This document shows positions 25,624 through 64,000 of a stretch of 64,000 bases of DNA, one piece after another. Positions within the stretch are counted from its first letter, which is position 1; each line of letters begins with the position of its first letter. The notes under the pieces are model-generated. The model worked only from the letters and a program-made list of their open reading frames with translations. It did no database searches and had not been told where the DNA came from. The position numbers and the translations under genes were made by a program. Source of the stretch: Impatiens glandulifera (taxonomy: Eukaryota > Streptophyta > Magnoliopsida > Ericales > Balsaminaceae); the NCBI RefSeq assembly GCF_907164915.1, contig NC_061867.1, forward strand, positions 34,903,751-34,967,750, in the 5' to 3' direction.

Positions 25624-26925
25624 TGTTAGATAAAATTAGACCGGTTCAAATAAACCTAACTTAAATTAACCTTCCATGCAGGAACAAGGAACCGGACCGG
25701 ACAAACAAAAGAACCGGCTAAAGAAAACTAGCCGGTCAAGTCATTAAACTGACCAGGAACACCTGGAATATAACCGCACAAAGAAAGGGTCGGCCAAAGC
25801 TTAAAACCGGAAATATCAGACAACCGACCGGCAACAAGGCAAAGGAATAACCGGAAGAAGTCTGGTTACATCACTCGTACCAGAAGCCATCCGGTTAAGT
25901 CAAATAACCGACCAGTACAAGAAGACAATTCGGGTATTTGTTGAGAATGATACCAAAGGAACAGACTGAACACTTCCATATCCATACAAGTCTGAGGAAA
26001 GTCTGCAGACTGCAGAAGACAGTCCTACAAGATCTTTCCACTTCGGGATAAGTCAGAAAGGAGATCTTCCAAGTACAGACAACAACCTAACAGACAGTGT
26101 CTATATTGAGTAAAAGACAAACCTAGCAGATTTGTCTTACACACCGGAAGAACAGACAGTCAGGTTTGAGGTTGACCGTCAGGTCTGAAAAGGTGACCGC
26201 AGGCTCTGAATCACTGAATCACTGAACCTCTGCATCCCTGCTCAGCCAATCAAATTCAAGGCAGTAAAATATGACCGTTGGCATATTTCACCTATAAAAG
26301 GGGCAGTTGAAGAAGAGTAAATGTGGGACAAGAAATATACAGTGAGACAAGTGAGAAATTCTAAGAGCATTTATTCTACAAGTGATAAGACTGTGTTGTT
26401 CTAGAAAGCCTAAGTGTAAAAGTTAAAGTGTGTGATTTACAATTTCGGTGTAAATTGTAAGAGTGTCATCGAGCAGGAAATAAGTCTCGATCGGATTGTA
26501 CTTGTATTCCTTAGTGAATATCCTTCTCGCGGCTTCGAGAGGAAGGGGTGACGTAGGAGTTTTATCTCCGAACATCCATAAAATCTGTTTTGTCATTTAC
26601 TTTCTGCCGGTTCCATTATCTAACCGACCCGCATCGCTATAACCGACTTAACACTACTCAAGCCGATTCACCAGGTTACCGAAACTGACCCATCAATTCT
26701 CAAATCTTCATCATCCAAAACCGGCTCTGTCTATTATACAACGTGTGCCGCTTCAACCTGAAAGCAAACCTCTTCCGCGCTTGAACCTAGTTCAAGGGTT
26801 TGTGACAGGTTGTGTAGTATTGAAACCCCGGTGCTAATCTCTAACCGGATTAACCACCACCCTTCGAGTGAGAACCGCTAACCGGTCCAACCCCCGGTCC
26901 TCCAACGGCTACCTAGATCCTAACA
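25624..26925 (+). repeat. 5' LTR of element I
   Basis: 1302 bp, TGTTAGATAAAATTAG to GATCCTAACA. Rich in CCGG/ACCGG words. Carries a TATA box at 26293 and, in the presumed R/U5, GGGGTGACGTAGGAG, a block resembling the GACGTAGG motif common in plant LTRs. Agrees with the 3' LTR at all but a few percent of positions by eye. Confidence 0.95.
26293..26300 (+). promoter_or_regulatory. LTR TATA box (TATAAAAG)
   Basis: CCTATAAAAGGGGC, placed ~630 bp before the LTR end; the same box is at 38663 in the 3' LTR, 46013-46020 (minus) in element II and 54243-54250 in element III. Likely drives the genomic gag-pol RNA. Confidence 0.75.
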
Positions 26926-26927
26926 AT

Positions 26928-26939
26928 TGGTATCAGAGC
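26928..26939 (+). other. Primer-binding site (initiator tRNA-Met)
   Basis: TGGTATCAGAGC two bases after the LTR, complementary to the 3' end of plant initiator tRNA-Met as in most Ty1/copia elements. Confidence 0.92.
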
Positions 26940-26964
26940 AGTTAGTTTCAATACTCAAGCAAGC

Positions 26965-28779
26965 ATGTTTTAGGATAGGCCTCCAATGCTAGAAGGTGAT
27001 GACTTTGCCAATTGGAAGACACGCATGCACCTGCACTTAATCACATTGGATGATGAAATGGAGTCCATTCTGACCGAAGGACCGATATTCATTGATAAGG
27101 ACAGAAAGGAATGGACGGCTGAAGATAGGAGAAGAAACAACCTGGATAATCATGCTAGAAACCGGATCTCCAACAGTGTGGACAGAAACACATACTGCAA
27201 AATCAGAGACTGCAAACCCGCGAAGGATACATGGAACACGGTTATCCAGATCTTTGAGGGAAATGAAAGAACAAAGGAGAACAAGATAATGGTGGCTACA
27301 CAGAAGTTTGAAAGCATCAAAATGAAACCAGGAGAAACTATGAAGGAGTACAGTGACCGGTTCACTGGTGTGTTAGATGAGCTAGCAACTCTGGGCAAGA
27401 GGTATGACAACAAAGAGGTCATTATGAAAGCTTTGAGATCTCTTCCAAGTACTTGGGACATAAAAACAATGGTAATGAGGGAATCAAAGAGCCTACGTAA
27501 GATGAAACTACACGATGTATTCGAAGATCTTAAGGCATATGAGTTCGAAATGAGATCTAGGACTGAAGAAGAAGTCCCGGCCTCAACATCAACCAGAGCA
27601 CTAATTACATCTACAGAACCGGTTGCACTTGCACCTGCACCTGTACCGGCCCCGACACCTGTACTGATCAGAATCGCCGAACAGTTCACCGAGGATGCCA
27701 TGGCTATGCTCGCACAGAAGTTTGGGAGGTTCATGAAAAGAAGTCAACCGACAAACAACTACTATGGTGATAAATCCAATGTAAGGTGTTATAACTGTAA
27801 CTGTTTGGGACATTTTAAGTGGGAATGCAGGAAACCGTGGAGGGATACCCAGAAACCGGATTACCAAAATAACCGGAACAACTATCAACAAACCGGTGAA
27901 GGAAGTGAGGTACCGAAAGCACTGATAGCCGACGATGGAGGAAGCTTATGGGCTCACAGTGACAGTGATGATGAACTCACGTGCCTCATGACAAATGAAG
28001 AACAGGTATTTGACTCTCCTTGTGAAGAATTTACTAAAGATGAATTATACAATGCATTGAATGACATGGTAGAAGAATATAGGAACCTACTAGCCATGCT
28101 ACCTAAGCACCTCAACATTAGAACCAATCCCATAGTACCCATTCCGACAGAACTAGAGGTACTCATTATAACCGAACTGGAGGTCGTACAACCTGATGAT
28201 ACCCATACCTTAGAAACCGAGTTAGATCCTAAGACCAAACAATCCAGTGAACCGGCTAGAAAATTAACCGAGGAAGAAAATGTCCGACTTCAATATAAGA
28301 TGGCTGCATATAAGAGATCTAGTGATATAGTAAAGAAAATGTGTAGTCATTACAGACATCCCCGTTGCAAGTTCGGCCTAGGATACACAAAGGATAGCTC
28401 CAAAGACCGAAAAGCCGTAGAAAAAGTAAGGTCTACAAGAGGTAACCTCCCCCTTATAAAATTCCTTAAAAACTCCTGGACCACTGAAGAAGAGTTGACC
28501 GCATACTACAGGGAAGAAAAGCTAAAATACGACTACGTTGGTCCAACCGACTCTGAGAAATGGCTTGACCCTGTGAAAAGAAAAGCCGAAATCCTCAAAT
28601 ATATGAAAACCTATCCTGAACCGCATAAGCCAAACCAAAGATCACCAAACCGAAGATCACCACCATTTAAGACCTATGTAGAAAAACCGAGATACACAAG
28701 ACCGAGTGCCAAAAGGACAGTTAAAACCCTAGCAAAGAAGACCGTCCGGTTTATCAAGGTTGGATACCTAAGGGACTAA
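26965..28779 (+). pseudogene. Element I gag (nearly intact; nonsense at codon 3)
   Basis: The ATG at 26965 corresponds to the gag start of element III, but codon 3 is TAG (26971). An ORF of 597 codons is open from the next ATG (26986), losing only about seven residues. It encodes a retrotransposon capsid protein: UBN2-like gag region (about residues 60-190), proline/alanine stretch (~205-225), a CCHC zinc knuckle C268-X2-C-X4-H-X4-C281, and an acidic then basic C-terminal region. The end differs from element III: a one-base loss near 28762 turns KVWIPKG into KVGYLRD and a stop. Function in family: RNA packaging and particle assembly in the cytoplasm. Confidence 0.88.
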
Positions 28780-28785
28780 TCGCAT

Positions 28786-31700
28786 GTGGACCCAAGTAAT
28801 GTTGGGTACCAAACAGTTGTAAATATGTATATTTTGCAGGATCTAAAGAAACGGCTAGGAAACTCTGAATGGTTCTTGGATAGCGGCTGCTCCAGGCACA
28901 TGACCGGAAACAGCAATTTGCTAACCGATATCAGAACAGTAACCAGTGCTCTAATCACCTTCGGTGACAACTCAAAAGGTAGAACTGTGGGCAAGGGTAA
29001 GATTGTCCATGGTAACCTAACTATTGATAATGTAATTTTAGTTGAAAACCTACGTTTTAACCTGCTCAGCATTAGTCAGATGTGTGATGCTGGATATACT
29101 GTAGAATTTCTTAAACATGCATGCTTAGTTAAGAACTCTCAAGGTATTGTACTGCTAACCGGAAATAGGATAGGTAATATCTACAAGGTAGACTGGAAAA
29201 CGAAGGTAGAATATCCTATATGCATGATACCTAAGACTGATCAAACTTGGTTGTGGCATAAGAGACTAAACATATAAACATGAAAACTTTAAACTACATT
29301 CGCGGTAAAAAGCTAGTTGAGGGCATCCCTGATATAGTATTTAATCAGGATAAGGTTTGTTCAGCATGTCAAATGGGTAAACAAACTAGGTCAACCTTTA
29401 AGAGTAAGGGAAATATCCAATCTAGCCGATGCTTAGATCTTCTTCATAGGATCTATTGGACCGGATTCAGGTTGTTAGCCTAGGAGGTATGCTTTACAGC
29501 ATGGTAGTTATTGATGATTATTCTAGATTTACATGGGTAATATTTCTACCATCTAAACGTGAAACCGTATCAAACCTGATTACACTTCTTAAGCGTCTTG
29601 CAAATGAAAAATCAACTCGCATTAATAGCATTCGAAGTGATCGAGGGTACCGAATTTACCAATAGTACCTTGACCGCATATCTTGATGAATCCGGCATTA
29701 GACACGAGTTGTCTAGTGCTAGGACTCTCAACAAAATGGCCTGGCCGAGAGAAGAACACTGGACTCTCAAGGAAGCCGCAAGGTCCATGATAGCCGATTC
29801 CGGCAATTGCTCAGAAATTTTGGGCTGAAGCTATCAACATTGCATGTTATACGCAAAAACTGTCTTTAATAAACAATTTTCATAACAAAAACAACTTATG
29901 AGGTTTATTTTAACAGGGTTCCCAACTTAAGTACCCTCAAATTTTTGGTTGTAAGTGTTATATACATATAAATGGTAAAACCCAACTCACTGCTTTTTGA
30001 TGCAAAAACGATTACACAGATCTGCTAGGTTAGGTTCCGCGTATAGTAGGCATATAGAGTGTATAATAATAGAACCTTAACCATGGAGGAAACAATTCAT
30101 GTTGTTTTGTGAATCGGTTGAAAGTAATACTGGCTTCATGCTTTGATCTACACAACAGATTGGAAAACAACAATATCCATTCTGTAGTGAAGATGAGAGA
30201 CTCCAGTCTTCAGGCGGTTTGTCCATGACCAAAGGGTAATATGAAGCCCAACCGGATCAAGCTGTTCCACAACAAGAAGCTGACACTTCGGTCCATCCGA
30301 GAAGTGTGGTCGATCCTGACAATCCTGTTCAGCCTACCGATATGTTTAGCCTTGATCAAGTAAAACAGTAATTTGGTAGACATCCCTGAACTGAATCTCA
30401 AAAGAAACATAAACATCCTCCTGAGAAATTATAGGTGAACCTTCAGAACCTGTTCGAACTAGGTGTCAACTTCGGGAAGGATACTTTAATTCCGCTTTTA
30501 TATCCCAGATTTGAACCGAAAAGAATAGATGAAGCATTGTCAATCCTGATGGGATCTTGGGAATGCAAGAAGAGCTAAACCAGTTCGAGAGTAGTAAAGT
30601 CTGGTAACCTAGTCCCTAGACCGAAGGATCATCGGTCATAGGAAAGGATGGTATTTAGAAACAAACTCAATGAGGACGGTTTGGGTCACGAGGAACAAAG
30701 CCAGATTAGTGGCACAAAGCTACAAACAGGAAGAAGGCATTGATTTTGAAGAATCATTTGCACCTGTAGCTAGGATTGAAGCCATTAGAATTTTTCTTGC
30801 CTTTGCTGCTTTCAAAAACATTAAGTTTTTCAATGGATGTTAAAAGTGCATTCTTGAACGGTGGACCTACGTGAAGAGGTGTATGTTGAACAACACCCGG
30901 TTTCAAGAGCGCTGCATTTCCAACCAATGTATACCGGTAAATAAGGCTTTATACGGTCTAAAGCAAGCACCTAGAGCCTGGGTATGATACATTAACCGCA
31001 TTCCTGTTACAACATGACTTTCACCATCGGTTCGGTAGATAAAACGTTGTTTAAATTTGAAAAGAAGGAACATATCCTACTTGTTCAAATCTATGTAGAT
31101 GATATCATTTTCGGTTCCACCGATCCTAAGCTATGTGATAAATTGTCCAAAAAAATGATGAATGACAAGTTTGAAATGAGTATGATGGGAGAATTAGCTT
31201 CTTCCTAGGTCTTAGGTTAAACAACTCAAGGAAGGAACTTTCATAAGCCAACCTAAGTACACCAAGGAGCTTCTAAAGAGTGTTGGAATGGACACATGCT
31301 CTTCAGCGGCTACTCCAATGAGCGCATCAATTAATTGGACAGGGATGATGAGGGCCAATCGGTAGACCAGATCGCATACCGGGGCATGTTCGGCTCTCTC
31401 CTATACTTGACGAGAGTAGAACAGACATGTCTGTTTTGCAGTCGGTGTGTGTGGGAGATTCCAGGAAATCAAAACAATCCCACTACACAGCCGCAAAGAG
31501 GATATTGAAGATCTAAAGGGCACACCTGATGTCGGTCTGTGGTATCCAAAGGACTCGTCCTTTAATCTACGAGTTACTCAGATGCAGACTATGCAGGTTG
31601 TAAGAGTGACAGAAAAAGTACCAGCGGGAACATGTCAATTTCCTATGGTGACCGACTTGTTTCATGGCATAGCAAAAAACAAACATCGGTACCACATCTA

Positions 31701-32055
31701 ACTGCAGAAGCAGATACATAGCGGCGGGAAGTTGCTGTTCACAATTACTTTGGTTTACAACAACAGCTGAAGGACTTCGGTGTCACAGCCGAAGAGGTCC
31801 CCGATCTTCTGTGACAACACGAGTGCCATAGCAATAACTTACAATCCGGTTCTCCACTCTAGGGACCAAGCATTTGACATAAGGCACCACTTCATTAGGG
31901 AACATGTCACGCTGAAGCATATCGGCTGGAATACGTATCGACTGACCAACAAGTAGCCGATATCTTCACGAAGCCTCCTACAGGAAGCTAAGTTCTCTCA
32001 ATTCCAACTTACTCTCGGTTTAACCGACATTAGTCGATCCTTCCTAGGATGCTTA
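28786..32055 (+). pseudogene. Element I pol (protease-integrase-RT-RNase H), heavily frameshifted
   Basis: The first part (28786-29277) is open and holds the protease motif LDSGCSRHMTG (DSG at 28879-28887) and the GAG-pre-integrase start. From there the frame breaks repeatedly. Integrase pieces include CQMGKQT (near 29370), VVIDDYSRFTWV (near 29505) and IRSDRG (near 29635). RT pieces include [16 protein letters not shown] (near 30765) and an intact YVDD (31092-31103). RNase H pieces include SRTKH-like and DIRHHF (near 31880). Many single-base indels lie at non-homopolymer sites compared with element III. No functional pol can be made from it. Confidence 0.92.
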
Positions 32056-32566
32056 AAGGGAAACCGGTTCGGACAGATAAAACCGGTAGTTCCTCCTAAA
32101 CTGTTGGACTTTAAATCTTCAAGATACCTATGGAAGAACCGCCCAGTTCATCAGATAGAGTAAACCGACGGCTACTTGGTGCATGCACCAAATAACCGCA
32201 TCGGGATGAACAACTGCTGACTTACCGTTTGGAAAGCAGGTATCCTAAATTATTGAATTCCAAACAGAAGTGGAATAATTATCAGTGTTTAAAGATATCT
32301 GTTCTGAAACATTGTCCTTTCAAAGTAAACTGGTCGCACCTAAAAAGACGTGAAGATCTGTTGATATCTTTCACAGTCCAGGTCTATGACCAACACCCTA
32401 TACTGCAAACATACCTATTTCATGCAATACCTCTTATTCTGCAGTTAATAGATATCATCTCATGAAATACCTGTGAAAATAGGATATTCCCAAACTAGTA
32501 TTTAGTGAAGCGAACATTCACCAAAGCACTCACAAGACAAAAGATCATTCTCTCACTAAGGCAAAA
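32056..32566 (+). promoter_or_regulatory. Pol to ORF-A intergenic region with TATA-like box
   Basis: About 510 bp conserved with 59980-60496 in element III and partly with 52133-52620 (minus) in element II. A weak TATA-like TATTTAGT at 32499 lies 68 bp before the ORF-A ATG; elements II and III have better versions at nearly the same spacing. A CA/A-rich leader (CTCACTAAGGCAAAA) precedes the ATG. Confidence 0.5.
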
Positions 32567-33330
32567 ATGTCTCAGTTCCCCAACATCCTTCAGGTTGATT
32601 TTCAATCCTGTTCAAGCACAGAGCACTATGAGGTGTATAAGATGATCAAATCCCTGGAAGATACCGGTCTTCGGTACTTCCTGGACGACAAACACACCAT
32701 TTATCCTGAATCAATACTAGAGTTTTTCTATCACGCCAGGGTATTCAGGGGGACCCCCCACTTTGAAACTCACATTCAATCTAAGTGGGAGGTATCGTCT
32801 TTGATTTACCGGAAAGAGACTTTGCGCGGTGCTTTAGGCCTGCCAAAGCAAGGGTTGACAGATCTTGATGTTCCGGCCAACATAAAGGCCGAGGATCTCC
32901 CTCACCCTCGCACGGTCTGACGAACCGGTTGAGGATCACGGTACTAAGATCACACTTGAGAGCTGAATATCAGCTTCTCAATGATGTGATCGGTAGGAGC
33001 ATCTTCGGGAGAGATGTCCCAAATACCTACTGTAACTCGACCTTCAACATGATGGCGGCTTATAATCACCGGTACACCGGTGAACTGGTCCAGGGTGCTG
33101 TTTGACGTCCTCATCTGGATGGTTGGTATCCGATCAATCGACTTCATCCCCCACTAAGCTGCCTTCTTGTGGAGCTTGGTGTTCCGACCTGTCCCGGAGA
33201 AAGTCTGAACCAAGCCCAAGTGCTGACCAAAGAGATAACCGACTCTTTCTATGAGCGGTTCGAGAGGGCCTGGAGGAGAAGGAACCACCGTAACAACTCT
33301 ACCGGTGTCGTCAACTCCCACGCACATTGA
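32567..33330 (+). pseudogene. Element I ORF-A (accessory protein A), frameshifted
   Basis: Begins MSQFPNILQVDFQS like the intact copies at 60497-61258 and 51371-52132. The frame is lost near 32785 by a small deletion within the QSKVGG motif, and again downstream (near 32915 and 33065), but homologous sequence continues to about 33330. For a description of the protein see element III ORF-A. Confidence 0.85.
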
Positions 33331-33821
33331 GTCACTCCTTCCTGCACCCGGTCATTTTGCTGCACGTACCGGGTGTATCTTTATCCAACATCATCATGAT
33401 CACTTCGGCTTCTATCATGTTTCCTTTCGGTGTTATCTTTGTTCCCTATTCGGCTCTATATGTGCCTTCTTCGGCCTTATCTATGTTATTCTCGGTCTCC
33501 TTTAATTAATCTCTTTTGTGTTGGTGCATTAATTAAAAAGTAATATTTAATTAATGGAGTAACCCCCAACCACCTGAATAATTACTATCCAACTAACTTG
33601 GTTACTTTCCAACTAAACCTACCTCGGGCTCCGCAATCAGCCTCTTCCCAATAAACCTTGAAAACAAAAGATTCCCTTCTCTAATAAACAAAACTGACAA
33701 TCAAAGCTCATGTTTTCCCTCCAAAACCGATCCTATATAAAGGGCCATTCCTCACTCAACTCCACACATCCTAACACATATATCACTTCTCTTGAATTCT
33801 ATCTCTCTCAAAACCGTAATC
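33331..33821 (+). promoter_or_regulatory. ORF-B promoter region with TATATAAA
   Basis: TATATAAA at 33734-33741 lies 88 bp before the ORF-B ATG, followed by a C/T- and A-rich leader (CACTTCTCTTGAATTC). Elements II (51009-51016, minus) and III (61621) have a TATA at 88 and 97 bp. Upstream is a TAATTAAAAAGTAATATT stretch shared with element III. Confidence 0.65.
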
Positions 33822-34526
33822 ATGCCGAGCCGAACCATGGGAAATTTTTCAAGCATCGATTTCGATTCATGCATGGAGGAATGGGACGGGCTGCACGCAA
33901 AGGAACTCATGTTCGAATCCCTCATCCTTACCGGCCTTCGACCGTTCCTCGAAGAATCCGGTCCGATTCTGATTGAGGACGTTAAAACGTTCTTCAGAAG
34001 CGCATGCATCAGGGGCAATTACATTGTCTCTACGGTGAGGGACCACACATTCTGGCTCGATGAAGCCGAATTTGCCACTCTATTCAACCTGCCCACAGAA
34101 GGGTTCTCTGATTTTCCACCTCTGGAGGGGCTTGCCGAATTCTATTACTCACTCCTCTTTTCTGGAACCATGGAACCGGTGGAAGACCATGGGCCCAAAA
34201 ACCTTCTGGGGAGACACGCTCAACTTCTTCTTGAGATCGTCACTCGGTCCATTCTTTGTCAGTCCCCTAATCAGCGGTACTCAAAGAACACCTACAACAT
34301 GATGACCAACATCTTTAGCAAAAAGGCCATCAACTGGTCCACGGTCATCTTCCAACGTCTGAAATCCATGGTGATAACCAAGAAAGGTCTTGGTTATGCA
34401 CCTCACATCAGCAAACTAATTCTCACATACTGGCCAGAGTTTGGACCGGGAACACCGGCCTCCTCTTCGAACATCCTTGACAAGGATTCGGTGGAGGAAA
34501 GGATTTCCAGAATGTTTCTTCCATAG
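33822..34526 (+). CDS. Element I ORF-B (accessory protein B), 234 aa, open
   Basis: The ATG at 33822 is chosen over the in-frame ATG at 33792 because MPSRT is the conserved start in element III and the equivalent start in II is MSSQT. Visible blocks: VDF-type opening FSSIDFDSCMEEWD, LILTGLRPFLEESGPILI, FFRSACIRGNYIVSTVRDHTF-type core, FNLPTEGFSDFP, HAQLLLEIVTRSILCQSPNQ, YNMMTNIF, INWSTVIFQRLKSMV, and a C-terminus LTYWPEFGPGTPASSSN. No transmembrane segment or known catalytic motif. The pattern resembles the putative plant transposon protein domain (Pfam Transposase_32), from memory. It is the only accessory ORF of element I still open, although pol around it is dead. Role unknown. Confidence 0.8.
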   Translation: MPSRTMGNFSSIDFDSCMEEWDGLHAKELMFESLILTGLRPFLEESGPILIEDVKTFFRSACIRGNYIVSTVRDHTFWLDEAEFATLFNLPTEGFSDFPPLEGLAEFYYSLLFSGTMEPVEDHGPKNLLGRHAQLLLEIVTRSILCQSPNQRYSKNTYNMMTNIFSKKAINWSTVIFQRLKSMVITKKGLGYAPHISKLILTYWPEFGPGTPASSSNILDKDSVEERISRMFLP

Positions 34527-35102
34527 ACTGTACTTTTCCATTGTTTATGTATGCTTATCCCAATACCGATTTATTTGTCGGTCTTCTTTCTGCAACGTCT
34601 CTTGAATACAATCTCATTTCAGTTTAAATGACCGAGTTTTCTTAACATCTAAAATATCTAAGTAACTGATTAACATTATCAAAACAACCGCGTTCCTATC
34701 CGGCTTCAAAGAAAAACCGCTTAAACTCAAAAGATTGGAAAACCTCTGCTCACTCTAAATAACCGGTTAAATTTAGAAACCGCAGATCAATCGGTCTCAA
34801 AGAGGATGGCGTCATCAATGGCGAAAGCAAAAGTTTTGGAGGGAAATTTCCCGCTCAAAAACCCCCCGCCATAGTTTGGCGCCTATTCGCGTTCCGCCCA
34901 TGGTTTGCCGCTCATCTTAGTTTTGGAGGGAAATTTCCCGCCCAATGTTGATGGGAACGGTTGGGCTTCCAAACCGCATCTATAAAAAGGGGACTCTCGG
35001 CCATTTTATTTCATTCTCACCGCGAATCTGCTTTCTCTCTCTAAAGCTTTCAAACTCTCTCAAAACGGTTATCTGCTCTCAAACTTTCTCAAACTCTCTA
35101 AG
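34527..35102 (+). promoter_or_regulatory. ORF-C promoter: TATA box and four E2F-like sites
   Basis: TATAAAAA at 34981-34988 is 122 bp before the ORF-C ATG. Upstream are four exact matches to the E2F consensus TTTSSCGC: TTTCCCGC 34847-34854, TTTGGCGC 34875-34882, TTTGCCGC 34904-34911, TTTCCCGC 34934-34941. Between TATA and ATG is a C/T-rich leader (CTTTCTCTCTCTAAAGC). The same arrangement occurs in elements II and III. Binding is inferred from motif matches only. Confidence 0.6.
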
Positions 35103-37655: not shown

Positions 37656-37977
37656 GGGCTCTCTTTTCTTTACCTATACTTGTCTTAGAATTTCTATATA
37701 TTATTTTCGGTTATCTATCATATATATAAAGCTATTTTTGAAACCGACCGTCTTTTGCATATCTACTTGGTTTTGATAATTTTAAATAAAATAATCAAAA
37801 AGGGAGAAATTGATAAGATAAAAAAAAAATAAGACCGTTCCAAAATTTTTCTCAAAATTTTTCGAAAAATTATCCTAAGTTAGTTTAAAAAATCCGGACA
37901 AACAAAACAACCGGCCTACGTTTGCAAACTTACATGATTTTGATAATTTTAAATAAAATAATCAAAAAGGGAGAAAT
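37656..37977 (+). other. 3' untranslated end with duplicated polypurine tract
   Basis: The true tract AAAAAGGGAGAAAT (37964-37977) adjoins the 3' LTR. A second copy lies at 37797-37810, followed by TGATAAGATAAAA...AAGACCG, which mimics an LTR start and resembles that of element III. The ~45-bp block TTTTGATAATTTTAAATAAA plus tract is repeated in both places. Element II has the same double arrangement. Multiple polypurine tracts are known for Sireviruses. Confidence 0.8.
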
Positions 37978-52640: not shown

Positions 52641-53578
52641 TAATATCGGTTAAACCAAGTGTAAGTCTGAATTGAGAGAACTTAGCTTCCCGAAGAGGCT
52701 TTGTGAAGATATCGGCTACTTATTGTTCTGTTGATACGTATTCTAGCCGGATATGCTTCAACATGACATGTTCCCGAATGAAGTGGTGCCTTATGTCAAT
52801 GTGTTTGGTTCTAGAGTGTAGAACCGGATTGTAGGTGATAGCTATGGCACTTGTGTTATCACAGAAAATTGGAGACTCTTCGGCTGTGATACCGAAATCC
52901 TTTAGTTGTTGTTGGATCCAGAGAAGTTGAGAGCAGTAGCTTCCGGCTGCCAGGTATTCAGCTTCTGCAGTTGATGTGGCTACTGATGTCTGTTTCTTGT
53001 TGTTCCATGAAACAAGCCGATCACCTAGGAATTGGCATGTTCCGCTGGTGCTTTTTATATCAACCTTGCAACCTGCATAGTCTGCATCTGAATAACTTGT
53101 GAGGTTAAAGGATGAGTCCTTTGGATACCACAAGCCGACGTCAGGAGTTCCCTTTAGGTATTTCAAGATTCTCTTTGCGGCTGTGTAATGAGACTATTTT
53201 GGATTAGCCTGGAATCTTCCACACACACCGACAGCAAATAGTATGTCCGGTCTACTTGCTGTCAGGTATAGGAGAGAACCGATGATTCCTCTGTAAGCAG
53301 TCAGGTCTACTGCTTGACCGTCATCATCATTGTCCAGTTTGACCGATGAGCTCATTGGAGTGGCAGCTGATGAGCACGTATCCATCCCAAATTTCTTTAG
53401 TAGTTCATTTGTATACTTGGGTTGGCTTATGAAAGTTCCTTCTTCGAGTTGCTTAACCTGAAGACCTAGGAAGAAGCTCAATTCTCCCATCATACTCATT
53501 TCAAATTTGTTAATCATCAGGGTTGAGAATTTATCACATAACTTAGGATCGGTTGAGCCGAAGATGATTTCATCTATA
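52641..53578 (-). pseudogene. Element II RT C-terminus and RNase H (truncated pol)
   Basis: One minus-strand frame from 53578 to about 52640. The first codons read IDEIIFGST: only the end of the RT catalytic motif remains, and its second Asp is Glu. Then [38 protein letters not shown], followed by RNase H ([52 protein letters not shown]). In-frame stops at 53194 and 52720, both where element III has CAA. Cut on its 5' side by the LTR of element III. Confidence 0.92.
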
Positions 53579-54870
53579 TGATAAGATAAAATTAGACCGA
53601 TTCACAGAACTTAACATAAATAAACCTTTCATGCAGGAACAAGGAACCGGACCGGTCAAACAAATGAACTGGCTAAGAAGACTAGCCGGTCAAGATACTA
53701 AACCGACCAAGAACACTTGGAACATGACCGCACAAAGAAAGGATCGGCCAAAGCTTAAAACCGGAAACATTAGACAGCCGATCAGCCACAAGGCAGAGGA
53801 ATAACCGGAAAGCTGTCCGGTTAAACCAATCACACCGGAAGCCATTCGGTAAAGACAAATGACCGACCAAGTACAAAAAGACAATTCGGGTATCTGTTGA
53901 GTATGATACCAAAGGAACAGACTGAATATTTCCATATCTATGCAAGTCTGATGAAAGTCCGCAGGCTGTAGAAGACAGTCCTACAAGATCTTTCCACTTC
54001 GGGATAAGTCAGAAAGGAGATCTTCCAAGTACAGACAACTGTTTAACAGACAGTGTCCACATTAAGAAAAAGACAAACCTAGCAGGTTTGTCTTACATAC
54101 CGGAAGAACAGACTGGCAAGTCTGTGAGATTGACCGCCAGGTCTGACCAATTGACCATAGGGTTTGAAACACTGAATCACTGAACCTCTGCTCAGCCAAT
54201 CAGATTCAAGGAAGTGAAATATGATCGTTGGCATATTTCACCTATAAAAAGAGCAGCTGAAGAAGAGTAAATGCAGCGGGACAAGAGGGACAACAAGAGA
54301 TTCTAAGAGCATTTAATTTACAAGTAAAAAAAAGTGTGTTCTCTCTCTCGAAAAGCCTAAGTGCTAAAGTTGAAGTGTGTGTTTTGCAATTTTGGTGTAA
54401 ATTGTAAGAGTGTTATCAAGCAGAAAATAAGTCTTGATCGGATTGTACTTGTATTCCTTAGTGAATATCCTTCTCGCGGTTTCAAGAGGAAGGAGTGACG
54501 TAGGAGTTTTATCTCCGAACATCCATAAAACCTCTCTTGTCATTTACTTTCTGTCGGTTCCATTATCTAACCGATCCGTACCGCTCTAACCTACTTAACT
54601 CTATCCAAACCGAATCACCAGGTTACCGAAACCGACACATCATTTTCTTTAACCTTCATCATCTGAAACCGGTTCTACCTATCACACAAGTGTGCTACTT
54701 CAACCTGAAACAACCCTCTTCCGCGCTTGAACCTAGTTCAAGGGTTTGTGACAGTTTGTGTAGTATTGAAACCCCGGTGTTAATCTCTAACAGGATTAAC
54801 CACCACCCTTTGAGTGAGAACGGCTAACCGGTCCAACCCCGGTCCTCTAGCGGCTATCTAGATCCTAACA
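53579..54870 (+). repeat. 5' LTR of element III
   Basis: 1292 bp, starting TGATAAGATAAAATTAGACC rather than TGTTAGATAAAA as in elements I and II; this variant start equals the LTR-start mimic beside the second purine tract of elements I and II. TATAAAAA at 54243-54250. Confidence 0.93.
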
Positions 54871-54872
54871 AT

Positions 54873-54909: not shown

Positions 54910-56811
54910 ATGTCTTTCGATAGGCCTCCAATGCTAGAAGGTGATGACTTTGCCAACTGGAAGGCACGCATGCACCTACACTTAATCACCTTGGATGATG
55001 AAATGGAGTCCATTCTGACCGAAGGACCGATATTCATTGATAAGGACAGAAAGGAATGGACAGCTGAAGATATGAGAAGAAACAACCTAGATAATCATGC
55101 TAGAAATCGGATCTCCAACAGTGTGGATAGAAACACATACTGCAAGATCAGAGACTGCAAAACCGCGAAGGAGACATGGAACACGGTTATTCAGATCTTT
55201 GAGGGAAATGAAAGAACAAAGGAAAACAAGGTAATGGTAGCTACTCAGATGTTTGAAAGCATCAAAATGAAACCTGGAGAAATAATGAAGGAGTACAGTG
55301 ACCGGTTCACTGGTGTGTTAGATGAGCTAGCAACTCTTAGCAAGAGGTATGACAACAAAGAGGTCATCATGAAAGTTTTGAGATCTCTTCCAAGTGCTTG
55401 GGACATAAAGACAATGGTAATGAGGGAATCAAAGAGCCTACGTAAGATGAAACTACACGATGTATTCGAAGATCTTAAGGCATATGAGTTCGAAATGAGA
55501 TATAGGACTAAAGAAGAAGTCTCGGCCTCAACATCAACCAGAGCACTAATCACATCTACAGAACCGGCTGCACCGGCACCTGCACCGGCACCTGCACCTG
55601 CACCTGCACCGATCAGAACTGCCGAACAGTTCACCGAGGATGCCATGGCTATGCTTGCACAGAAGTTTGGAAGGTTCATGAAAAGAAGCCAACCGACAAA
55701 CTACAACTATGGTGATAAATCCAATGTAAGGTGTTATAACTGCAACTGTTTGGGACACTTCAAATGGGAATGCAGAAAACCGAAGAGGGATGACCGGAAA
55801 CCGGATTACCAAAATAACCGAAACAATTATCAACAAACCGGTGAAGAAAGTGAGATTCAGAAAGCACTGATAGCCGATGATGGAGGAAGTCTATGGGCTC
55901 ACAGTGACAGTGATGATGAACTCACATGTCTCATGGCAAACGAGGAACATGTATTTGACTCTCCTTGTGAACAATTTACTAAAGATGAGTTATATAATGC
56001 ATTGAATGATATGGTAGAAGAGTATAAGAACCTATTAGTCATGTTACCTAAGCAACTCAACCTTAGAACCGATCCTATAGTACCCATCCCGATAGAACTA
56101 GAGGTACTTGTTGTAACCGAACCAGAGGTCATAGAACCTGATGAAATCCCTAGCATAGAAACCGAGTTAGAACCTGGACCACCAATTAGTACCGAATAGT
56201 CTAGTGAACCAGCTAGAGAACTGACCGAAGAGGAAAATGCCCGACTCCAATATAAAATGGCCGCATATAAGAGATCTAGTGATATGGTAAAGAAAATGTA
56301 TAGTCATTACAGACACCCCTTTTGCATGTTCGGTTTAGGATACACAAAGGATAGCTCCAAAGACCAAAAACCCGTAAAGAAAGTAAGGTTTACAAGGAGT
56401 AACCTTCCTCTCATAAGATTCATTAAAAGCTCCCTGACCGCTGAAGAGGAACTGACTGCATACTATAAGGAAGAAAAGCTAAAGTACAACTATGTTGGTC
56501 CAACCGACTCTGAGAAGTGGCTTGATCCTGAGAAAAGAAAAGCCGACATTCTCAAAAATAGGAAAGCCAATCGTCAACCGCATAGGTCAAATCAAAGTTT
56601 ACCCTTACTTAAGACTTTTGTAGAAAAACCGAGATACCCAAAACCGAGTGCCAAAAGGACGGTTAAAACCTTAGCAAAGAAGGTTGTCCGGTTTGTCAAG
56701 GTTTGGATACCCAAGGGACTAATCGCATGTGGACCCAAAAGAATGTGGGTACCAAGTAGTTGTAAATATATACTTTTTGCAGGATTTAAAGAAACGGCTA
56801 GGAAACTCTGA
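54910..56811 (+). pseudogene. Element III gag, one premature stop
   Basis: ATG at 54910 (MSFDRPPMLEGDDFANWKAR) directly follows the conserved leader. 633 codons to the stop at 56809-56811, with TAG at 56197 where element I has CAA. Domains: DUF4219/UBN2-like gag N-terminus and core (residues ~1-190), an Ala-Pro dipeptide run (~217-232, seven or so AP units, longer than in element I), CCHC zinc knuckle from C275, acidic middle, and a basic C-terminus with KVWIPKGLIACGPK, a phrase typical of copia gag-pol junctions. The end overlaps pol by ~83 bp in a different frame. Confidence 0.9.
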
Positions 56812-59800
56812 ATGGTACTTGGATAACGGTTGCTCCAGGCATATGACCGGGAACAACAATCTGCTAACCGACATCAGAATAGAAACTGGTGCTCTAATTA
56901 CCTTCGGTGACAACTCAAAAGGTAGAACTGTGGGCAAGGGTAAGATTGTCCATGGTAACTTAACTATTGATAACGTACTCCTAGTTGAAAACCTACGTTT
57001 TAACCTACTGAGTATTAGTCAAATGTGTGATGCTGGATACACGGTAGAATTTCTTAAACATGCATGCTTAGTTAAGAACTCTCAAGGCATTATACTGCTA
57101 ACCAAAAATAGGTTAGGTAATATTTATAAGGTAGACTGGAAAACTAAGGTAGAACACTCTATATGCATGATAGCTAAGACTGATCAAACCTGGTTATGGC
57201 ATAAAAGACTAAACAATCTAAACATGAAGACATTGAATTACATTCGCGGTAAAAAGCTAGTATAAGGTATCCCTGACATAGTATTTAACAAAGATAAGGT
57301 TTGTTCAGCATGTCAAATGGGTAAACAGACTAAGTCAACCTTTAAGAGTAAAGGAAATATCCAATCTAGCCGATGCTTAGATCTCTTACACATGGATTTA
57401 TTTGGACCGATTCAGGTCATTAGCCTAGGAGTAATGTTGTACACCATGGTAGTTATTGATGATTACTCAAGGTTTACATGGGTAATATTTTTACCATCTA
57501 AAAGTGAAACCGCATCAAACCTGATCACACTTCTTAAACGTTTGCAAAATGAAAAATCAACTCGCATTAATAGCATCAGAAGTGATTGAGGTACCGCATT
57601 TCTTGATGAATCCGGCATTAGACACTAGTTGTCTAGTGCTAGGACTCCTCAACAAAATGGCCTGGCCGAGAGAAGAAATCGGACTCTCAAGGAAGCCGCA
57701 CGGTCCATGATAGCCGATTCGGGCATTGTTCAGAAATTTTGGGTTGAGGCTATCAACACTGCATGTTATACATAAAACCGGTCTTTGATTAACAAGTTTC
57801 ATAACAAAACACCGTATGAGGTTTATTTTAATAGGGTTCCCAATCTTAAGTACCTCAAGATTTTTGGTTGTAAATGCTACATTCATATAAATGGTAAAAC
57901 ATATCTTTCTGCTTTTGATGCAAAAATCGATACTGGAATCATGCTAGGTTACTCGGCAGTAAGTAAGGCATATAGAGTGTATAACAATAGAACTTTAACC
58001 ATGGAGGAAACACTTCACGTTGTTTTCGATGAATCGGTTGAAAGTAATATTGCATCATGCTTTGATCTACACAACAGATTGGAAAACAACAATATCTACT
58101 CTGATAGTGAAGAAGAGACACCGGTCTTCAGGCGGTTTGTCCATGAACAAATGGGTAATATTGAAACCCAGCCGGATCAAGCTGTCCCGCGACAGGAAGC
58201 TGACACTTCGGTCCAATCCGAGGAAGTCGGTCGGTCTGACAATCTTGTTCAGCCTACCGATATGTCTAGCCTTGATCAAACAAACGGTAATCTGGTAGAC
58301 ATCCCTGAACCGAACTTTAAAAGGAACACCAAACACCCTCCTGAGCAAATCATAGGTGATCCTTCAGAACCTGTTCGAACTAGGGGTCAACTAATGGAGG
58401 AATACCTTAATTCTGCCTTTATATCCCATATTGAGCCGAAAAGAATAGATGAAGCATTGTCAGATCCGGATTGAATCTTGGGAATGCAAGAAGAGCTAAA
58501 CCAGTTCGAGAGTAATAAAGTCTGGTACCTAGTCCCTAGACCGAAAGATCATCCGGTCATAGGAACAAGATGGGTATTTAGAAACAAACTCGATGAGGAC
58601 GGTTTGGTCACGAGGAACAAAGCCAGATTAGTGGCACAAGGTTACAAACAGGAAGAAGGCATTGATTTTGAAGAATCATTTGCCCCTGTAGCTAGGATTG
58701 AAGCCATTAGGATTTTTCTAGCCTTTGCTGCTTTCAAAAACTTTAAGGTTTTTCAAATGGATGTTAAAAGTGCATTCTTGAATGGTGACCTACGTGAAGA
58801 GGTGTATGTTGAACAACCACCCGGTTTTAAAAGTGCTGAATTTCCAAACCATGTATACCGGTTAAACAAAGCTTTATACGGTCTAAAACAAGCACCTAGA
58901 GCCTGGTATGACACACTAACCGCATTTTTGATCGCACATGATTTCACGATTGGGTCGGTGGATAAAACGTTGTTCAAATTTGAAAAGAAGGAACATATCC
59001 TCCTTGTTCAAATCTTTGTAGATGATATCATTTTCGGTTCAACCGATCCTAAATTGTGTGATAAATTTTCAAAACTGATGACTAACAAGTTTGAAATGAG
59101 TATGATGGGAGAATTAAGTTTCTTCCTAGGTCTTCAGGTTAAGCAACTCGAAGAAGGAACCTTCATTAGCCAACCTAAGTACACCAAGGAGCTTCTAAAG
59201 AAGTTTGGGATAGACACATGCTCCTCAGCGGCTACTCCAATGAGCTCATCGGTTAAATTGGACAAGGATGATGAGGGCCAATCGGTAGACCAGATAGCTT
59301 ACCGGGGCATCATCGGTTCTCTCCTATACCTAACAGCGAGTAGACCAGACATTCTATTTGCAGTCGGTGTGTGTGGGAGATTCCAAGCAAATCCAAAACA
59401 ATCTCACTACACAGCCGCAAAAAGAATATTGAAGTATCTAAAGGGGACACCTGATGTCGGCCTGTGGTATCCAAAGGACTCGTCCTTTAATCTAACAATT
59501 TATTCAGATGCAGACTATGCAGGTTTAAGATTGACAGAAAGAGCACCAGCGGAACATGTCAATTCCTAGGTGACCGGCTCGTCTCATGGCATAGCAAGAA
59601 ACAGACATCGGTGGCCACATCAACCGCAGAAGCTAAATACCTGGCGGCCGGAAGTTGTTGTTCACAACTCCTTTGGATCCAACAACAACTGACGGATTTC
59701 GGTGTCATAGCCGAAGAGTCACCGATCTTCTGTGATAACACAAGTGCCATAGCAATCACCTACAATCCGGTTCTCCACTCCAGAACCAAGCATATTGACA

Positions 59801-59979
59801 TAAGGCACCACTTCATCAGGGAACATGTCATGCTGAAGCATATCTGGCTAGAATACGTACCGACTAATCAACAAGTAGCCGATATCTTCACCAAACCTCT
59901 ACAGGAAACTAAGTTCTCTCAATTCAGACTTACTCTCGGTTTAACCGACATTAGTCAAATCCTTCATAAGGATGCTTAA
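56729..59979 (+). pseudogene. Element III pol: protease, integrase, RT, RNase H; five stops and one frameshift
   Basis: One frame runs 56729-59569, then a frameshift near 59525 and RNase H continues to TAA at 59979. In-frame stops: TAA 57263, TGA 57587, TAG 57626, TAA 57773, TGA 58472. Protease reads LDNGCSRHMTG: the catalytic DSG has become DNG. Integrase: WLWHKRL and CQMGKQT zinc region, HMDLFGP, VVIDDYSRFTWV, IRSD, with ~24 bp lost after the second Asp region compared with element [56 protein letters not shown], catalytic FVDD (59025-59036). RNase [48 protein letters not shown]. Closest in style to SIRE-type Sireviruses. Confidence 0.92.
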
Positions 59980-60496
59980 AAAGGGAAACCGGTTCGGACA
60001 GACAAAACCGGTAGTTCTTCCTAACCTGTTGAACTTCAAAATTTTCTTGGTATCTATGGAAAAACCGCCCAGCGTATCAGATAGAGTAAACCGACCGGCT
60101 ACTTGGTATATGCACCAAATAACCGCATCGGGATGAACAGCTGATAGCTGACCGGTTCGGAAATAGGCTATCCTAGATTATTTGAAATTCAAACAAAAGT
60201 GGAATAACTATTAGTGTTTAAAGATATCTGTTCTGAAACATTGCCTTTTCAAAGTAAAATGGTCGCACCTAAAAAGACGTGAAGATCTGATGATATCTTT
60301 CATAGTCCAGGTCTATGACCAACACCCTATACTGCAAACATGCCTATTTCATGCAATACCTTTTATCCTGCAGTTAATAGATATCATCTCATGTAATACC
60401 TGGACATTAGGATACTCCCACAACTAGTATTTAAGAGAAGCAAACATTGACTAAAACACTCACAAGACAAAAGATCATTCTCTCACTAAGGCAAAA
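59980..60496 (+). promoter_or_regulatory. Element III pol to ORF-A interval with TATTTAAG
   Basis: TATTTAAG at 60428-60435 starts 69 bp before the ATG. The leader CTCACAAGACAAAAGATC to CACTAAGGCAAAA is shared with element I. Confidence 0.55.
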
Positions 60497-61258
60497 ATGT
60501 CTCAGTTTCCTAACATCTTTCAAGTTGATTTCGAATCTGCCTTAAGCACGGAGCATTATGAGGTTTACAAAGTGATCAAATCCCTGGAAGATACTGGTCT
60601 TCGGTACTTCCTGGATGACAAGCAAATTATATACTCTGAATCAGTCCTGGAATTTCTGTATAATGCCAGGGTGTTTAGAGGAACTCCCCACTTCGATACC
60701 CACATTCAGTCGAAAGTGGGAGGTATAGTCTTTGACTTCACCGAGAATGACTTCGCTAGGTGCTTCAGCCTACCGAAGCAAGGGTTAACAGATCTGAATG
60801 TTCCGGCTGATCTGAAGGCCGAGATTTCTCTCACCTTTGCACGTTCGAACGAACCTGTCGATGATCATGGAACTAAATCACTATTGAAAGCTGAATATCA
60901 GCTTCTCAACGATGTGATAGGTAGAAGCATCCTGGGAAGAGATGTGACAAACACTTACTGCACGACGACCTTTAATATGATGGCGGCAATCACCACCGGT
61001 ACACCGGTGAACTGGTCAACGGTCTTGTTCGACGTCCTGATCTGGATGATTGGGGTGCGAACAATCGGCCTCGTTCCTCAGCTAAGCTACCTACTAGTTG
61101 AACTTGGTGTTCCGATCTGTCCGGGCGAAGGTCTAAACCAGGCTCAAGTGCTGACCAAAGAGATAACCGACTCCTTCTATGAGCGGTTCAAAAGGGCTTG
61201 GAGGAGAAGGAACCGCCGCAACAACCCCAACGGTGTCATCAACTCCCACGAACACTAA
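60497..61258 (+). CDS. Element III ORF-A (accessory protein A), 253 aa, intact
   Basis: Starts MSQFPNIFQVDFESALSTEH; this ATG is conserved in all three elements and is the first after the leader. Blocks in order: VDFES (~residue 10), SLEDTGLRYFLDDK (~32-45), LEFLYNARVFRGTPHFDTHI (~54-73), VGGIVFDFTENDFARCFSLP (~77-97), LNDVIGRSILGRDVTNTYC (~140-160), FNMMAAITTGTPVNWSTVLF (~163-182), LVELGVPICPGEGLNQAQV (~200-220), basic KRAWRRRNRRNN near the C-terminus. No signal peptide, membrane helix or catalytic motif is seen. The VDF opening, EFF/EFL-A-x-G middle, LP-x-G and VNWS blocks are shared with ORF-B and ORF-C. Resembles the putative plant transposon protein domain; function unknown. Confidence 0.82.
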   Translation: MSQFPNIFQVDFESALSTEHYEVYKVIKSLEDTGLRYFLDDKQIIYSESVLEFLYNARVFRGTPHFDTHIQSKVGGIVFDFTENDFARCFSLPKQGLTDLNVPADLKAEISLTFARSNEPVDDHGTKSLLKAEYQLLNDVIGRSILGRDVTNTYCTTTFNMMAAITTGTPVNWSTVLFDVLIWMIGVRTIGLVPQLSYLLVELGVPICPGEGLNQAQVLTKEITDSFYERFKRAWRRRNRRNNPNGVINSHEH

Positions 61259-61717
61259 GTCACTCCTTCCTGCAACCGGTCATTTTGCTTCACGCACCGG
61301 GTGTATCTTTATCCAACATCATTATGATCACTTCGGCTTTTCTTATGTTTTTCCTCGGTTTTACCTATGATTCCTTCGGTTTCTTTTGATTACTTTCCAT
61401 TATGTTGGTGCATTAATGAAAAAGGAATCTTTAATTAAAGAGGTAACTCCCACCTAACATAAGTAATCAATATCCAACTAACTTGGTTACTTCTCAACTA
61501 ACACCTACCTCGGGCTTCGCAATCAGCTCTTCCCAATAAACCTTGGAAACATAAAGATTCTCTTTCCTAATAAAACAAAACTGACATTCAATGCTAATAT
61601 TTTCCCTCCAAAACCGAACCTATATAATGGGCCTTCCTCTAATCAACTCCACACATCCTAAAATCACAAAACTCTCTTGAAGTCTTTTGAATTCTATCTC
61701 TTAGCAAAACCGTAATC
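61259..61717 (+). promoter_or_regulatory. Element III ORF-B promoter region
   Basis: TATATAAT at 61621-61628, 97 bp before the ATG. Aligns with 33331-33821 over its full length. A short C/T-rich repeat of TCGGTTT/TCGGCTT words follows the ORF-A stop. Confidence 0.6.
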
Positions 61718-62422
61718 ATGCCGAGCCGAACCTTAGGAAACTTTTTGAGCGTCGATTTCGAATCATGCATGGAAGAATGGGACAAAAATCATGCAAAGAA
61801 CATCATGTTTGAATCCCTTATTGATACCGGCCTTCGAACCTTCCTCGAAGAATCCGGTCCTATTCTGATTGAGGATGTTAGGACCTTCTTTCGAAGCGCC
61901 TGCATCAGGGGCAATTACATCGTCTCTACGGTAAGAGACCACACTTTCTGGCTTGATGAAGCCGAATTTGCCTCCCTACTCAACATGCCCACAGAAGGGT
62001 TTTCTGACTTTCCAACTCTGGAGGGAAGTGAGGCATTTTATCACGCACTACTCCTCTCTGGAACCATTGATCCGGTGGAAAACTATGGGTTAAAAACCCG
62101 CCTCGGTAGTCACGCTCAACTCCTTCTTGAGATTGTGACTCGGTCTATCCTTTGTTAGTCTCCAAATCAGCGGTACTCAAAGAACACCTACAACATGATG
62201 ACCCATATCATTAGCAAAACGGCCATCAACTGGTCAACGGTCCTCTTTCAACACCTGAAATCCATGGTGATAACCAAGAAAGGTCTCGGTTATGCACCTC
62301 ACATCAGTAAGTTGATTCTTAAATACCGGTCAGAATTTGGACCGGGCACACCGGCTTCTTCTTCAAACATACTTGACAAGGATGCGGTGGAAGAAAAGAT
62401 CTCCAAAATGGTTATTACATAA
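61718..62422 (+). pseudogene. Element III ORF-B, one nonsense codon
   Basis: ATG at 61718 (MPSRTLGNFLSVDFESCMEE). 234 codons, collinear with element I ORF-B; TAG at 62156-62158 replaces CAG in SILCQSPNQ. The rest of the frame (MMTHIISKTAINWSTVLF through KMVIT) is open. Confidence 0.85.
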
Positions 62423-63031
62423 GTTGTATTTTTCCATCTTTATGTATGTCTGTTTTCACACCGATCTATCTTTCGGTTTCCTTTCTGCAATGTTTCTTGA
62501 ATACAATTCCATTTCAGTTTAAATGACCGAGTCATCTTAACATCTTGAATATCTATCTAAGTAACCGGTTAACATTGTCAAAATAACCGCGCCCCTATCC
62601 GGTCTCAAAGAAAAACCGCTTAAACTCAAAAGATTGCAAAATTCTGCTTACTCAAAATAACCGGTTAACTTTAGAAAACCGTAGCATCAATCGGTCTCAA
62701 AAGAAGATTGCATCATCAAAGTCGAAAGCGAAAATTTTGGAGGGAAATTTCCCGCCCAAAACTCCCGCCTCCTGGATTACCGCCCACGGATTGGCGCCTA
62801 TTCATTTACCGCCTTTGGTTTCCCGCCCATGGTTTTCCGCCCATTCGGCTTGGAGGGAAAACTCTCTCCCAATGTTGATGGGACGGTTGGGTTTCCAAAC
62901 CGCACCTATAAAAGGGGCTCTCGGCCATTTCATTTCACTCTCACGCGAAACAGCTTTCTCTCTCTAAGCTCTCAAACTCTCTCAAGCGGTTATCTGCTCT
63001 TGTATTCTTCAAACTCTCTCAAACTTCTAAG
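62423..63031 (+). promoter_or_regulatory. Element III ORF-C promoter: TATA and E2F-like sites
   Basis: TATAAAAG at 62907-62914, 125 bp before the ATG. Exact TTTCCCGC at 62748-62755 and 62819-62826; near matches ATTGGCGC (about 62790), TTTACCGC (62805) and TTTTCCGC (62832). C/T-rich leader CTTTCTCTCTCTAAGCTC near 62953. Confidence 0.6.
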
Positions 63032-64000
63032 ATGGGGCGCAACTCGGTCTTGTTCAAACACATGACTCAAGTGGATTTCGAGGAAATCCAACAGAAGGGA
63101 ACGCCTGCAGCAGTAGAAGTTATTAACCGGGTAGCCGAGGCCGGACTAGAATACTTTCTCGGCGGTCCCCATATTCTATATAGAGATGCGGTTGAAGAAT
63201 TTTTCAACACCGCAACTCTCTCTGACGACAAGATCACCGCAACTGTAGGCGGTACTGAATTCGAGCTAACCGAGGAATCGGTTGCGGAGAGCCTGCGCCT
63301 TCCAACAGCCGGCCAAGATGCAACGACAGATATAGAGCTAAAAACATTTGAAGCAGCTTGCTAGATACTCTCAGCGACTAAGGAGCCGATAAAAGTATCC
63401 GGTAACAAAGCGACATTGCGACCGGAGTACATACCGATTTGTGATATCTTCATAAAGGCGGTTCAGGCAAGAGGAGGAAACTACAGCAGCCTCACCAAGG
63501 ATAAAATCAGGATGCTAGTCGGCCTGATAGAAGGCACAAAAGTGAACTGGGCGAAGGAAGTGTTCCACAACTTGAAGGAAATGGTGAAACCGGACTCAAC
63601 CCGGTCATGGGGATACGCCGTCCCTCTTGGTAAAATCTTTCTTCACCACAACATCAACACCGGTCCCGGTGTCATTATCTCATCCGGAAGGTTAATCAGA
63701 TCCAAACAATTCCTAGAAAGGACCCCGGTTCCACAGGTGGCTGAAAGAAGACAACCGGCAAGAAATCGGCCCCAGCGAAAGAAAAGGCCGAAAGCAAAGG
63801 CAAGGAGAAGGTAGTCTTCTCGGAACCGCCATCACAAACAGAGGAGGAAGAGTCGGCTTCCACATCTGAACGGACCGAATCTGAGAAATCCGATGAAGAA
63901 AGACCGAATGATGAAGAGGATTCGGGCCCATGTCCCGATAATACCGGTATGGGTGTAAATCCTGAGCCCGTCGAGGGCGTTGAAGAAAGCAGTGAAGAAG
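63032..64000 (+). pseudogene. Element III ORF-C N-terminal part (continues past window)
   Basis: ATG at 63032 (MGRNSVLFKHMTQVDFEEIQ). Open for 110 codons to TAG at 63362 after FEAAC, the same codon that is TAG in element II and CAG in element I. The frame resumes as ILSATKEPIKV, YIPICDIFIKA, IRMLVGLIEGTKVNWAKEVF, RSWGYAVPLGKIFLHHNINT to about 63715, where a ~12-base loss relative to element I shifts the frame. The basic linker and the start of the acidic Ser/Glu segment follow up to the window edge. Confidence 0.85.

Follow-up and report, generated by a model that had tools for sequence, protein, structure and literature searches.

Elements of the Sirevirus type are copia retrotransposons in which the junction of the 5′ long terminal repeat (LTR) is defined as CA/ATTGG plus the primer-binding site TATCAGAGC (PMC2829016 section 12; statements from the literature refer throughout to extracts of the cited articles). 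In the lineage SIRE (Maximus), an envelope-like (ENV-like) open reading frame (ORF), eORF-3′F, was reported between pol and the 3′ LTR in 74% of the elements (PMC6317226), and the ENV-like ORFs of MtRetro3 and LjRetro3 are 774–793 aa long (PMC4093653). In SIRE1, pol and the env-like ORF are one stop codon apart and read-through was reported; for the ENV gene of Sireviruses an internal promoter was hypothesised, but none was conclusively identified (both PMC2829016 section 20). Here we describe a stretch of 64,000 nt of Impatiens glandulifera (contig NC_061867.1, positions 34,903,751–34,967,750; genome size 654 Mb), referred to as the window, with three copia elements (I, II and III). They share with SIRE the copia domain order, the 5′ junction, the AT/TG attachment site, a mid-LTR TATA box and sense coding sequence between pol and the 3′ LTR. 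Whereas SIRE is described with one envelope-like ORF in the extracts, the elements found here carry three paralogous ORFs, designated A, B and C, with a TATA box before each. We regard it as likely that they are SIRE-like copia elements with three selected accessory genes, of which B and C, and perhaps A, would be expressed from internal promoters.

Accessory ORFs (aORFs) are also found outside the Sireviruses, and a general remark in the literature has it that three 3′ aORFs may occur in plant elements (PMC11728184). Sunflower Athila has a sense 3′ aORF of the Transposase_32 family between pol and the 3′ LTR, as observed here, but is a Ty3/gypsy element for which one PF20167 ORF was reported (PMC11728184). 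Gene23 of maize Grande (PMC7264820; further source Gomez-Orte 2013, by its title in PMC11963269) is likewise an accessory gene in a long 3′ region, with its own promoter and a nuclear protein; however, it is a single antisense gene of a gypsy element, and the likeness is one of description. PMD proteins (gypsy and MULE elements, host MAIN/MAIL1; PMC5418596) represent a plant accessory domain in retrotransposons, with a model of a role in silencing. Unlike these, A, B and C gave no match to the PMD profile PF10536 at E values up to 1 (ten pieces) or up to 5 (six proteins), in scans whose hmmscan filters drop most weak matches. In the literature searched (including PMC3414828 and PMC2774666; mostly outside subscription journals and seen in extracts), a set of three paralogous 3′ ORFs was not encountered in any copia element.

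The A-B-C block as part of the element

The elements were delimited by self-comparison of the window and inspection of the element ends (Table 1). Element I is complete, 13.7 kb long and flanked by a 5-bp target duplication; its LTRs differ by a Kimura two-parameter (K2P) distance of 0.028 over 1302 sites. Elements I and III are 85.5% identical over 10.6 kb, spacers included, and element II aligns in inverted orientation with 65–77% identity. The original prediction had placed A, B and C 3′ of RNase H in all three elements, with two open copies of A and one of B. Window alignment and ORF reading confirmed this, A being open in II and III (253 aa) and B in I alone (234 aa). Two of its details were corrected: gag of element I is open for 597 aa, and in the window element II lacks gag and retains no more than the terminal part of pol, since element III begins (around 53580) where II stops. 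ORF-C is disrupted in both I and II, and in III it is truncated at position 64000. In related copies, the full-size C from its ATG comprises 840 (L011), 834 (L028) and 947 aa (L039).

The A-B-C block is part of the element. Genome searches yielded 19,043 first-look candidates for A of III, 18,073 for B of I, 18,712 for A of copy L042 and 26,895 for the reverse transcriptase (RT) of III. The best 150 candidates (112 for RT) were scored, so that family sizes are lower bounds with a bias to good copies. Identities among the best 150 were 83–100% for A of III, with 98 stop-free, and 78–100% for B of I; 137 of the best 150 matches to A of L042 were stop-free (both counted by hand). Twenty copies chosen by A were spread over the ranking of 150 and taken from stop-free rows, which makes the openness of A uninformative in this set. 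B and C pieces were collinear with A in all 20, RNase H was found upstream in 19 and a match to the 3′ LTR downstream in 18. In one copy (L027), B and C are separated by an insertion, two (L012, L013) are cut within or right after C, and two (L011, L028) have C open from end to end. When RT was used as the entry point, 54 of 112 hits were followed, on the same strand and at the expected distance, by an A or B from the hit lists, and none had one upstream or on the opposite strand.

Collinearity of A, B and C extends to sister families (4/4 copies: L039, L040 and L041, obtained via PF20167, and L042, obtained via RT). The first three contain RT and RNase H as well as A, B and C, with identities to the window of 73–91% (RT), 34–58% (A), 36–47% (B) and 31–49% (N-terminal pieces of C). 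One sister family shares only 31–45% amino acid identity in A-B-C, yet 83–88% in RT. L042 is closer to the window (RT 93%, A 71%, B 71%, start of C 63%), and its A and B are open. With the 20 copies chosen by A, these results uphold the view that the module belongs to the element and is not a chance nested insertion. In many copies of the family of L042 (C7:33655202-33660002), A is open, with equal scores among the proteins, and pol has long open frames; this family is probably young and recently spread.

As to the lineage, SIRE is the most likely assignment. A Pfam scan of element III returned the copia order gag (Retrotran_gag_2), Pol_BBD, GAG-pre-integrase, rve, SH3_retrovirus and RVT_2; no Pfam match at E 0.01 was obtained for the RNase H piece, which is assigned by its position. 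The Sirevirus junction CA-ATTGG-TATCAGAGC is present in I and III, the attachment site AT/TG lies between the polypurine tract (PPT) and the 3′ LTR in I and II, and the TATA box is located mid-LTR (at about 600–685 of 1219–1316 nt). The Sirevirus label of the original prediction is thus borne out by these four marks, but not by the standard PPT octamer (see below). CCGG occurs 16, 12 and 8 times in the LTRs compared to 3.0, 2.0 and 1.6 expected, and is enriched also in gag-pol and in the coding sequence of C. CGGn2-7CCG palindromes are scarce in the LTRs (0, 2, 2).

Common origin and selection

The original prediction of a three-gene module proved real but undersold, as the ORFs are paralogous, amounting to a triplication, and not unrelated to each other. 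In BLASTP comparisons, A of III and B of I are 35% identical over 235 aa (E=9e-32), and B and a piece of C 25% over 119 aa (E=7e-10). A, B and C follow one common pattern in a multiple alignment, and tblastn with A picks up B, and often also C, within the same copies. A tree was computed from 45 open domains, 24 of A, 10 of B and 11 of C. Each of the three groups was confined to one side of a branch, with support values of 84/55, 96/90 and 100/99, respectively; that of A is the weakest, and the joins of the L039 rows are unsure due to their length. Sequence comparison shows that A, B and the N-terminal domain of C go back to a single PF20167-like ancestor, which was duplicated twice long ago, in the order ((A,B),C).

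PF20167 is the Pfam family 'Transposase_32', with a curated cut-off of 45 bits. In the window, A of III, A of II and B of I scored 23.6, 16.6 and 16.9 bits. Higher scores were obtained in sister families, in which C of L041 exceeded the cut-off (50.2 bits), followed by L039 C (38.9), L042 B (32.4), L042 A (23.5) and L039 B (12.9); A of L039 gave no match. A genome search with PF20167 yielded 3,707 first-look candidates, and 43 of the best 150 scored lie above the cut-off (rows counted by hand). The ten loci retrieved are C ORFs, with B upstream in 10/10.

All three genes are under purifying selection. The ratio of non-synonymous to synonymous divergence (dN/dS), a check proposed with the original prediction, turned out to be well below 1 for each of them. 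Values for the pairs I–III, II–III and I–II, a set that includes broken copies, are 0.145, 0.064 and 0.092 for A, 0.174, 0.198 and 0.155 for B, and 0.292, 0.223 and 0.292 for C; gag and pol gave 0.25 and 0.31 for I–III. Among open copies (a choice that lowers the ratio; L039 left out), medians by dS bin were 0.061–0.155 for A, 0.177–0.310 for B and 0.174–0.409 for C. Several dS values lie above 1.5 and are approximate; for A, the pairs L042–III and L042–L011 are saturated. The ratio peaks among the most similar pairs, in keeping with constraint on source copies and drift of dead ones, but that of C shows a second rise, to 0.305, in the bin of greatest distance. Along the element, dS between I and III is uneven (gag 0.30, pol 0.46, B 0.56, C 0.77, A 0.91), which hints at recombination between subfamilies.

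Putative expression signals and alternative explanations

The spacers pol-A, A-B and B-C span 426–876 nt and contain 4–18 stops per frame (four copies examined). With stops in every frame and the start of the LTR some 7 kb or more away, each of B and C, and perhaps A, would form its own transcription unit. In the window copies and in copies L009–L028, a TATA box was observed at −67 to −72 of A (TATTTAAG or TATATAAG), at −81 to −103 of B (mostly CTATATAAAG) and at −108 to −126 of C (mostly CCTATAAAAGGGGC). Between −130 and −55, such boxes were present in 22/23 copies for A, 23/23 for B and 21/22 for C, compared to 9%, 9% and 5% expected from a first-order Markov model. In the sister families L039–L042, a TATA box lies 66–121 nt before 12/12 genes, with chance values of 0.01 to 0.23 (A of L040 had no in-frame ATG and was measured from where its homology begins). 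Over 26 copies, 100 matches were counted in 5,850 bases of start windows, 19 in 32,110 bases of other spacer and 54 in the remaining 94,530 bases. This corresponds to 1.71 versus 0.059 per 100 bases for windows and remaining spacer, an approximately 29-fold difference; overlapping matches were tallied separately, and the reverse strand of the windows holds 34. Conservation of the TATA window is striking for B (rank 7/433).

Upstream of C, CCCGCC boxes are enriched (2, 3 and 5 versus 0.2–0.3 expected) and the observed/expected ratio of CpG is 1.08–1.33 versus 0.64 in gag-pol; CpG is undepleted after C as well. The B-C spacer (e.g. 62420–63031) combines undepleted CpG with repeated CCCGCC boxes 5′ of the C TATA box, some of which we take to resemble E2F sites. 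Between the TATA region upstream of C (III, L011, L028) and that of the LTR, 16 bases are identical for the LTR of I and 12 for the LTR of II. No match to an LTR TATA region was reported for C of II.

By hydropathy (19-residue mean), B and C reach at most 1.16 and no transmembrane helix was found in them, while A reaches 1.55–1.86 in one stretch. C carries several basic clusters and a weak, inconsistent 3.5-residue periodicity of the coiled-coil type (L011, L028, L039). AlphaFold models of A and B have a similar order of helix and β-hairpin, with confidence too low for a fold search. A protein database search with A gave 454 candidates, none at E ≤ 0.001; a search of PDB sequences with an A/B/C profile gave none at E ≤ 1, and a PHROGs search with three proteins was negative. 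A genome search with PF03078 (Athila) was without a match, although 14 controls were silent as well.

These observations can be assembled into the following mechanism for the SIRE-like elements. A large, abundant copia retrotransposon bears the block between pol and the 3′ LTR, a PF20167-like ancestral gene having been duplicated twice to give A, B and the N-terminal domain of C. TATA boxes 66–126 nt before the starts would make B, C and perhaps A separate transcription units, and A might alternatively be expressed by splicing through a candidate acceptor. Judged by their signals, B and C look promoter-driven and A either promoter-driven or spliced. The products would, by analogy, serve as soluble accessory regulators of the element, closer to PMD and Grande gene23 accessory proteins than to an envelope. 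C may act in the nucleus, as suggested by its basic clusters and hydropathy profile.

Several observations weigh against this interpretation. The internal promoters are putative, and the Markov expectations overstate significance because related copies are not independent. C of L020 lacks a TATA box, the chance value exceeds 0.2 for 2/12 sister-family genes, the box of A is unusual in form, and conservation of the TATA window is moderate for A (rank 51/493) and C (rank 41/593). The LTR of III itself gave no match to the C TATA region. A candidate splice acceptor precedes A in 26/27 copies, with 0.31 expected under a simple rule, and the hydrophobic stretch of A, which in III starts at residue 175 with a mean of 1.86, might form a membrane helix. 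The models are poor (mean predicted local distance difference test, pLDDT, 48.2 for A and 44.1 for B, from window-only alignments of 12 rows). PF20167 was touched by only 3 of the ten window pieces scanned (E 5e-5 to 0.008, all below the cut-off), the other seven having no match. Whether copies with the same LTRs lack the module, a question raised with the original prediction, is answered in part: the one RT-chosen copy that was read has it, and 54/112 RT hits have a listed A or B, whereas 58/112 RT hits are without one, the lists comprising the best 150 of 18,000–19,000 candidates. Finally, the standard Sirevirus PPT octamer AGGGGGAG is absent from the plus sense of the elements and occurs once in the window, antisense within gag, at chance level; the terminal PPT is AAAAGGGAGAA instead. 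In I as well as in II, this variant occurs twice at no more than 200 nt from the 3′ LTR, and allowing up to one mismatch gives 7 matches versus 3.3 expected, which is not far above. In two accepted Sireviruses, the last base of the octamer varies (PMC2829016).

The strongest alternative, which we nevertheless consider rather unlikely, is a Sirevirus with a classical envelope, in which C would correspond to the known ENV-like ORF and A and B to pieces duplicated from it, expression would proceed by splicing from the LTR as reported for BAGY2, and the products would act in cell-to-cell particle traffic. The size (834–947 aa) and place of C match the ENV-like ORFs of related elements, and the candidate acceptor before A fits this explanation. 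However, by the same simple rule acceptors are not enriched before B (9/27, expected 0.31) or C (13/26, expected 0.45), B and C show no transmembrane helix by hydropathy, and TATA boxes precede all three genes.

That the block is passive cargo, a captured host gene or nested DNA transposon that was duplicated and hitch-hikes with the element, appears very improbable. Capture of host sequences by retrotransposons is known and PF20167 bears the name of a transposase, but dN/dS is 0.06–0.41 across many copies and the gene order is retained in a family only 31–45% identical in A-B-C. In addition, the I–III alignment runs unbroken through the block (no dedicated search for transposon ends was made), and the ten PF20167 loci retrieved all show B and C arranged as in this element. 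Expression from full genomic RNA by read-through or re-initiation, the former being the reported route for the env-like ORF of SIRE1 (PMC2829016 section 20), is hardly credible, as the stops in every frame of each spacer in the four copies examined put stop suppression of this type out of the question.

A further-reaching form of the internal-promoter interpretation is a multi-promoter, virus-like retrotransposon, driven by the LTR and three internal promoters and encoding three diverged sister proteins as a tandem gene family retained in a mobile element, in which the rapid divergence of A-B-C between two sister families, against an RT that hardly changes, would reflect an arms race with host silencing; we regard this as possible but doubtful. 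The extra genes of this high-copy family are selected, triplicated and related to a domain reported in Athila, a gypsy element, and the relation to PF20167 may tie the extra ORFs of copia and gypsy elements together. The hypothesis of an internal promoter for Sirevirus ENV gains concrete candidate sites and a natural series of diverged families.

Features of the elements and surrounding sequence

Table 1 Features of elements I, II and III in the window (position 1 is the first base of the window)
Feature	Position	Strand	Remarks
Target-site duplication GGTAT	25619..25623 (left), 39294–39298 (right)		flanks element I
I, 5′ LTR	25624..26925	+	TATA box ~670 nt into LTR
I, gag	26986..28779	+	open, 597 aa
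I, pol (protease to RNase H)	28780..32160	+	broken
I, ORF-A	32567..33330	+	broken
I, TATA box of B	33734..33740	+	88 nt 5′ of B ATG
I, ORF-B	33822..34526	+	open, 234 aa; PF20167 E=0.006, under curated cut-off
I, ORF-C	35102..37660 (ends approximate)	+	broken; TATA-like box ~34981
I, second copy of terminal PPT, AAAAGGGAGAA	37798..37808	+	
I, terminal PPT AAAAGGGAGAA	37965..37975	+	followed by AT/TG at LTR
I, 3′ LTR	37978..39293	+	
II, 3′ LTR	45404..46622	-	
II, ORF-C	46972..49634	-	broken
II, ORF-B	50231..50928	-	broken by frameshift
II, ORF-A	51374..52132	-	open, 253 aa; TATATAAG 67 nt 5′ of ATG
II, pol end	52525..53579	-	cut off where III begins
III, 5′ LTR	53580..54870 (start approximate)	+	followed by ATTGG and TATCAGAGC
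III, gag + pol	54910..59976	+	broken; Pfam matches gag, Pol_BBD, GAG-pre-integrase, rve, SH3_retrovirus, RVT_2
III, TATTTAAG of A	60428..60435	+	69 nt 5′ of A ATG
III, ORF-A	60497..61258	+	open, 253 aa; PF20167-related, E=5e-5, under curated cut-off
III, TATA box of B	61621..61627	+	97 nt 5′ of B ATG
III, ORF-B	61718..62419	+	single in-frame stop
III, TATA box of C	62907..62914	+	125 nt 5′ of C ATG
III, ORF-C, first 1 kb	63032..64000	+	broken; continues past window end

Outside the elements, a direct repeat of 3 kb was found at 717–3771 and 42422–45404 (94–95% identical, 41.7 kb apart). Its second copy ends exactly at the LTR end of element II, which was therefore probably inserted into the repeat. 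A tandem array of about 12 copies of a 312–315-bp unit, 64–90% identical to the reference copy, occupies positions 15886–19638, with an inverted copy of the unit at 275–603. A minisatellite with a 50-bp unit (39933–40675) lies a short way past element I.

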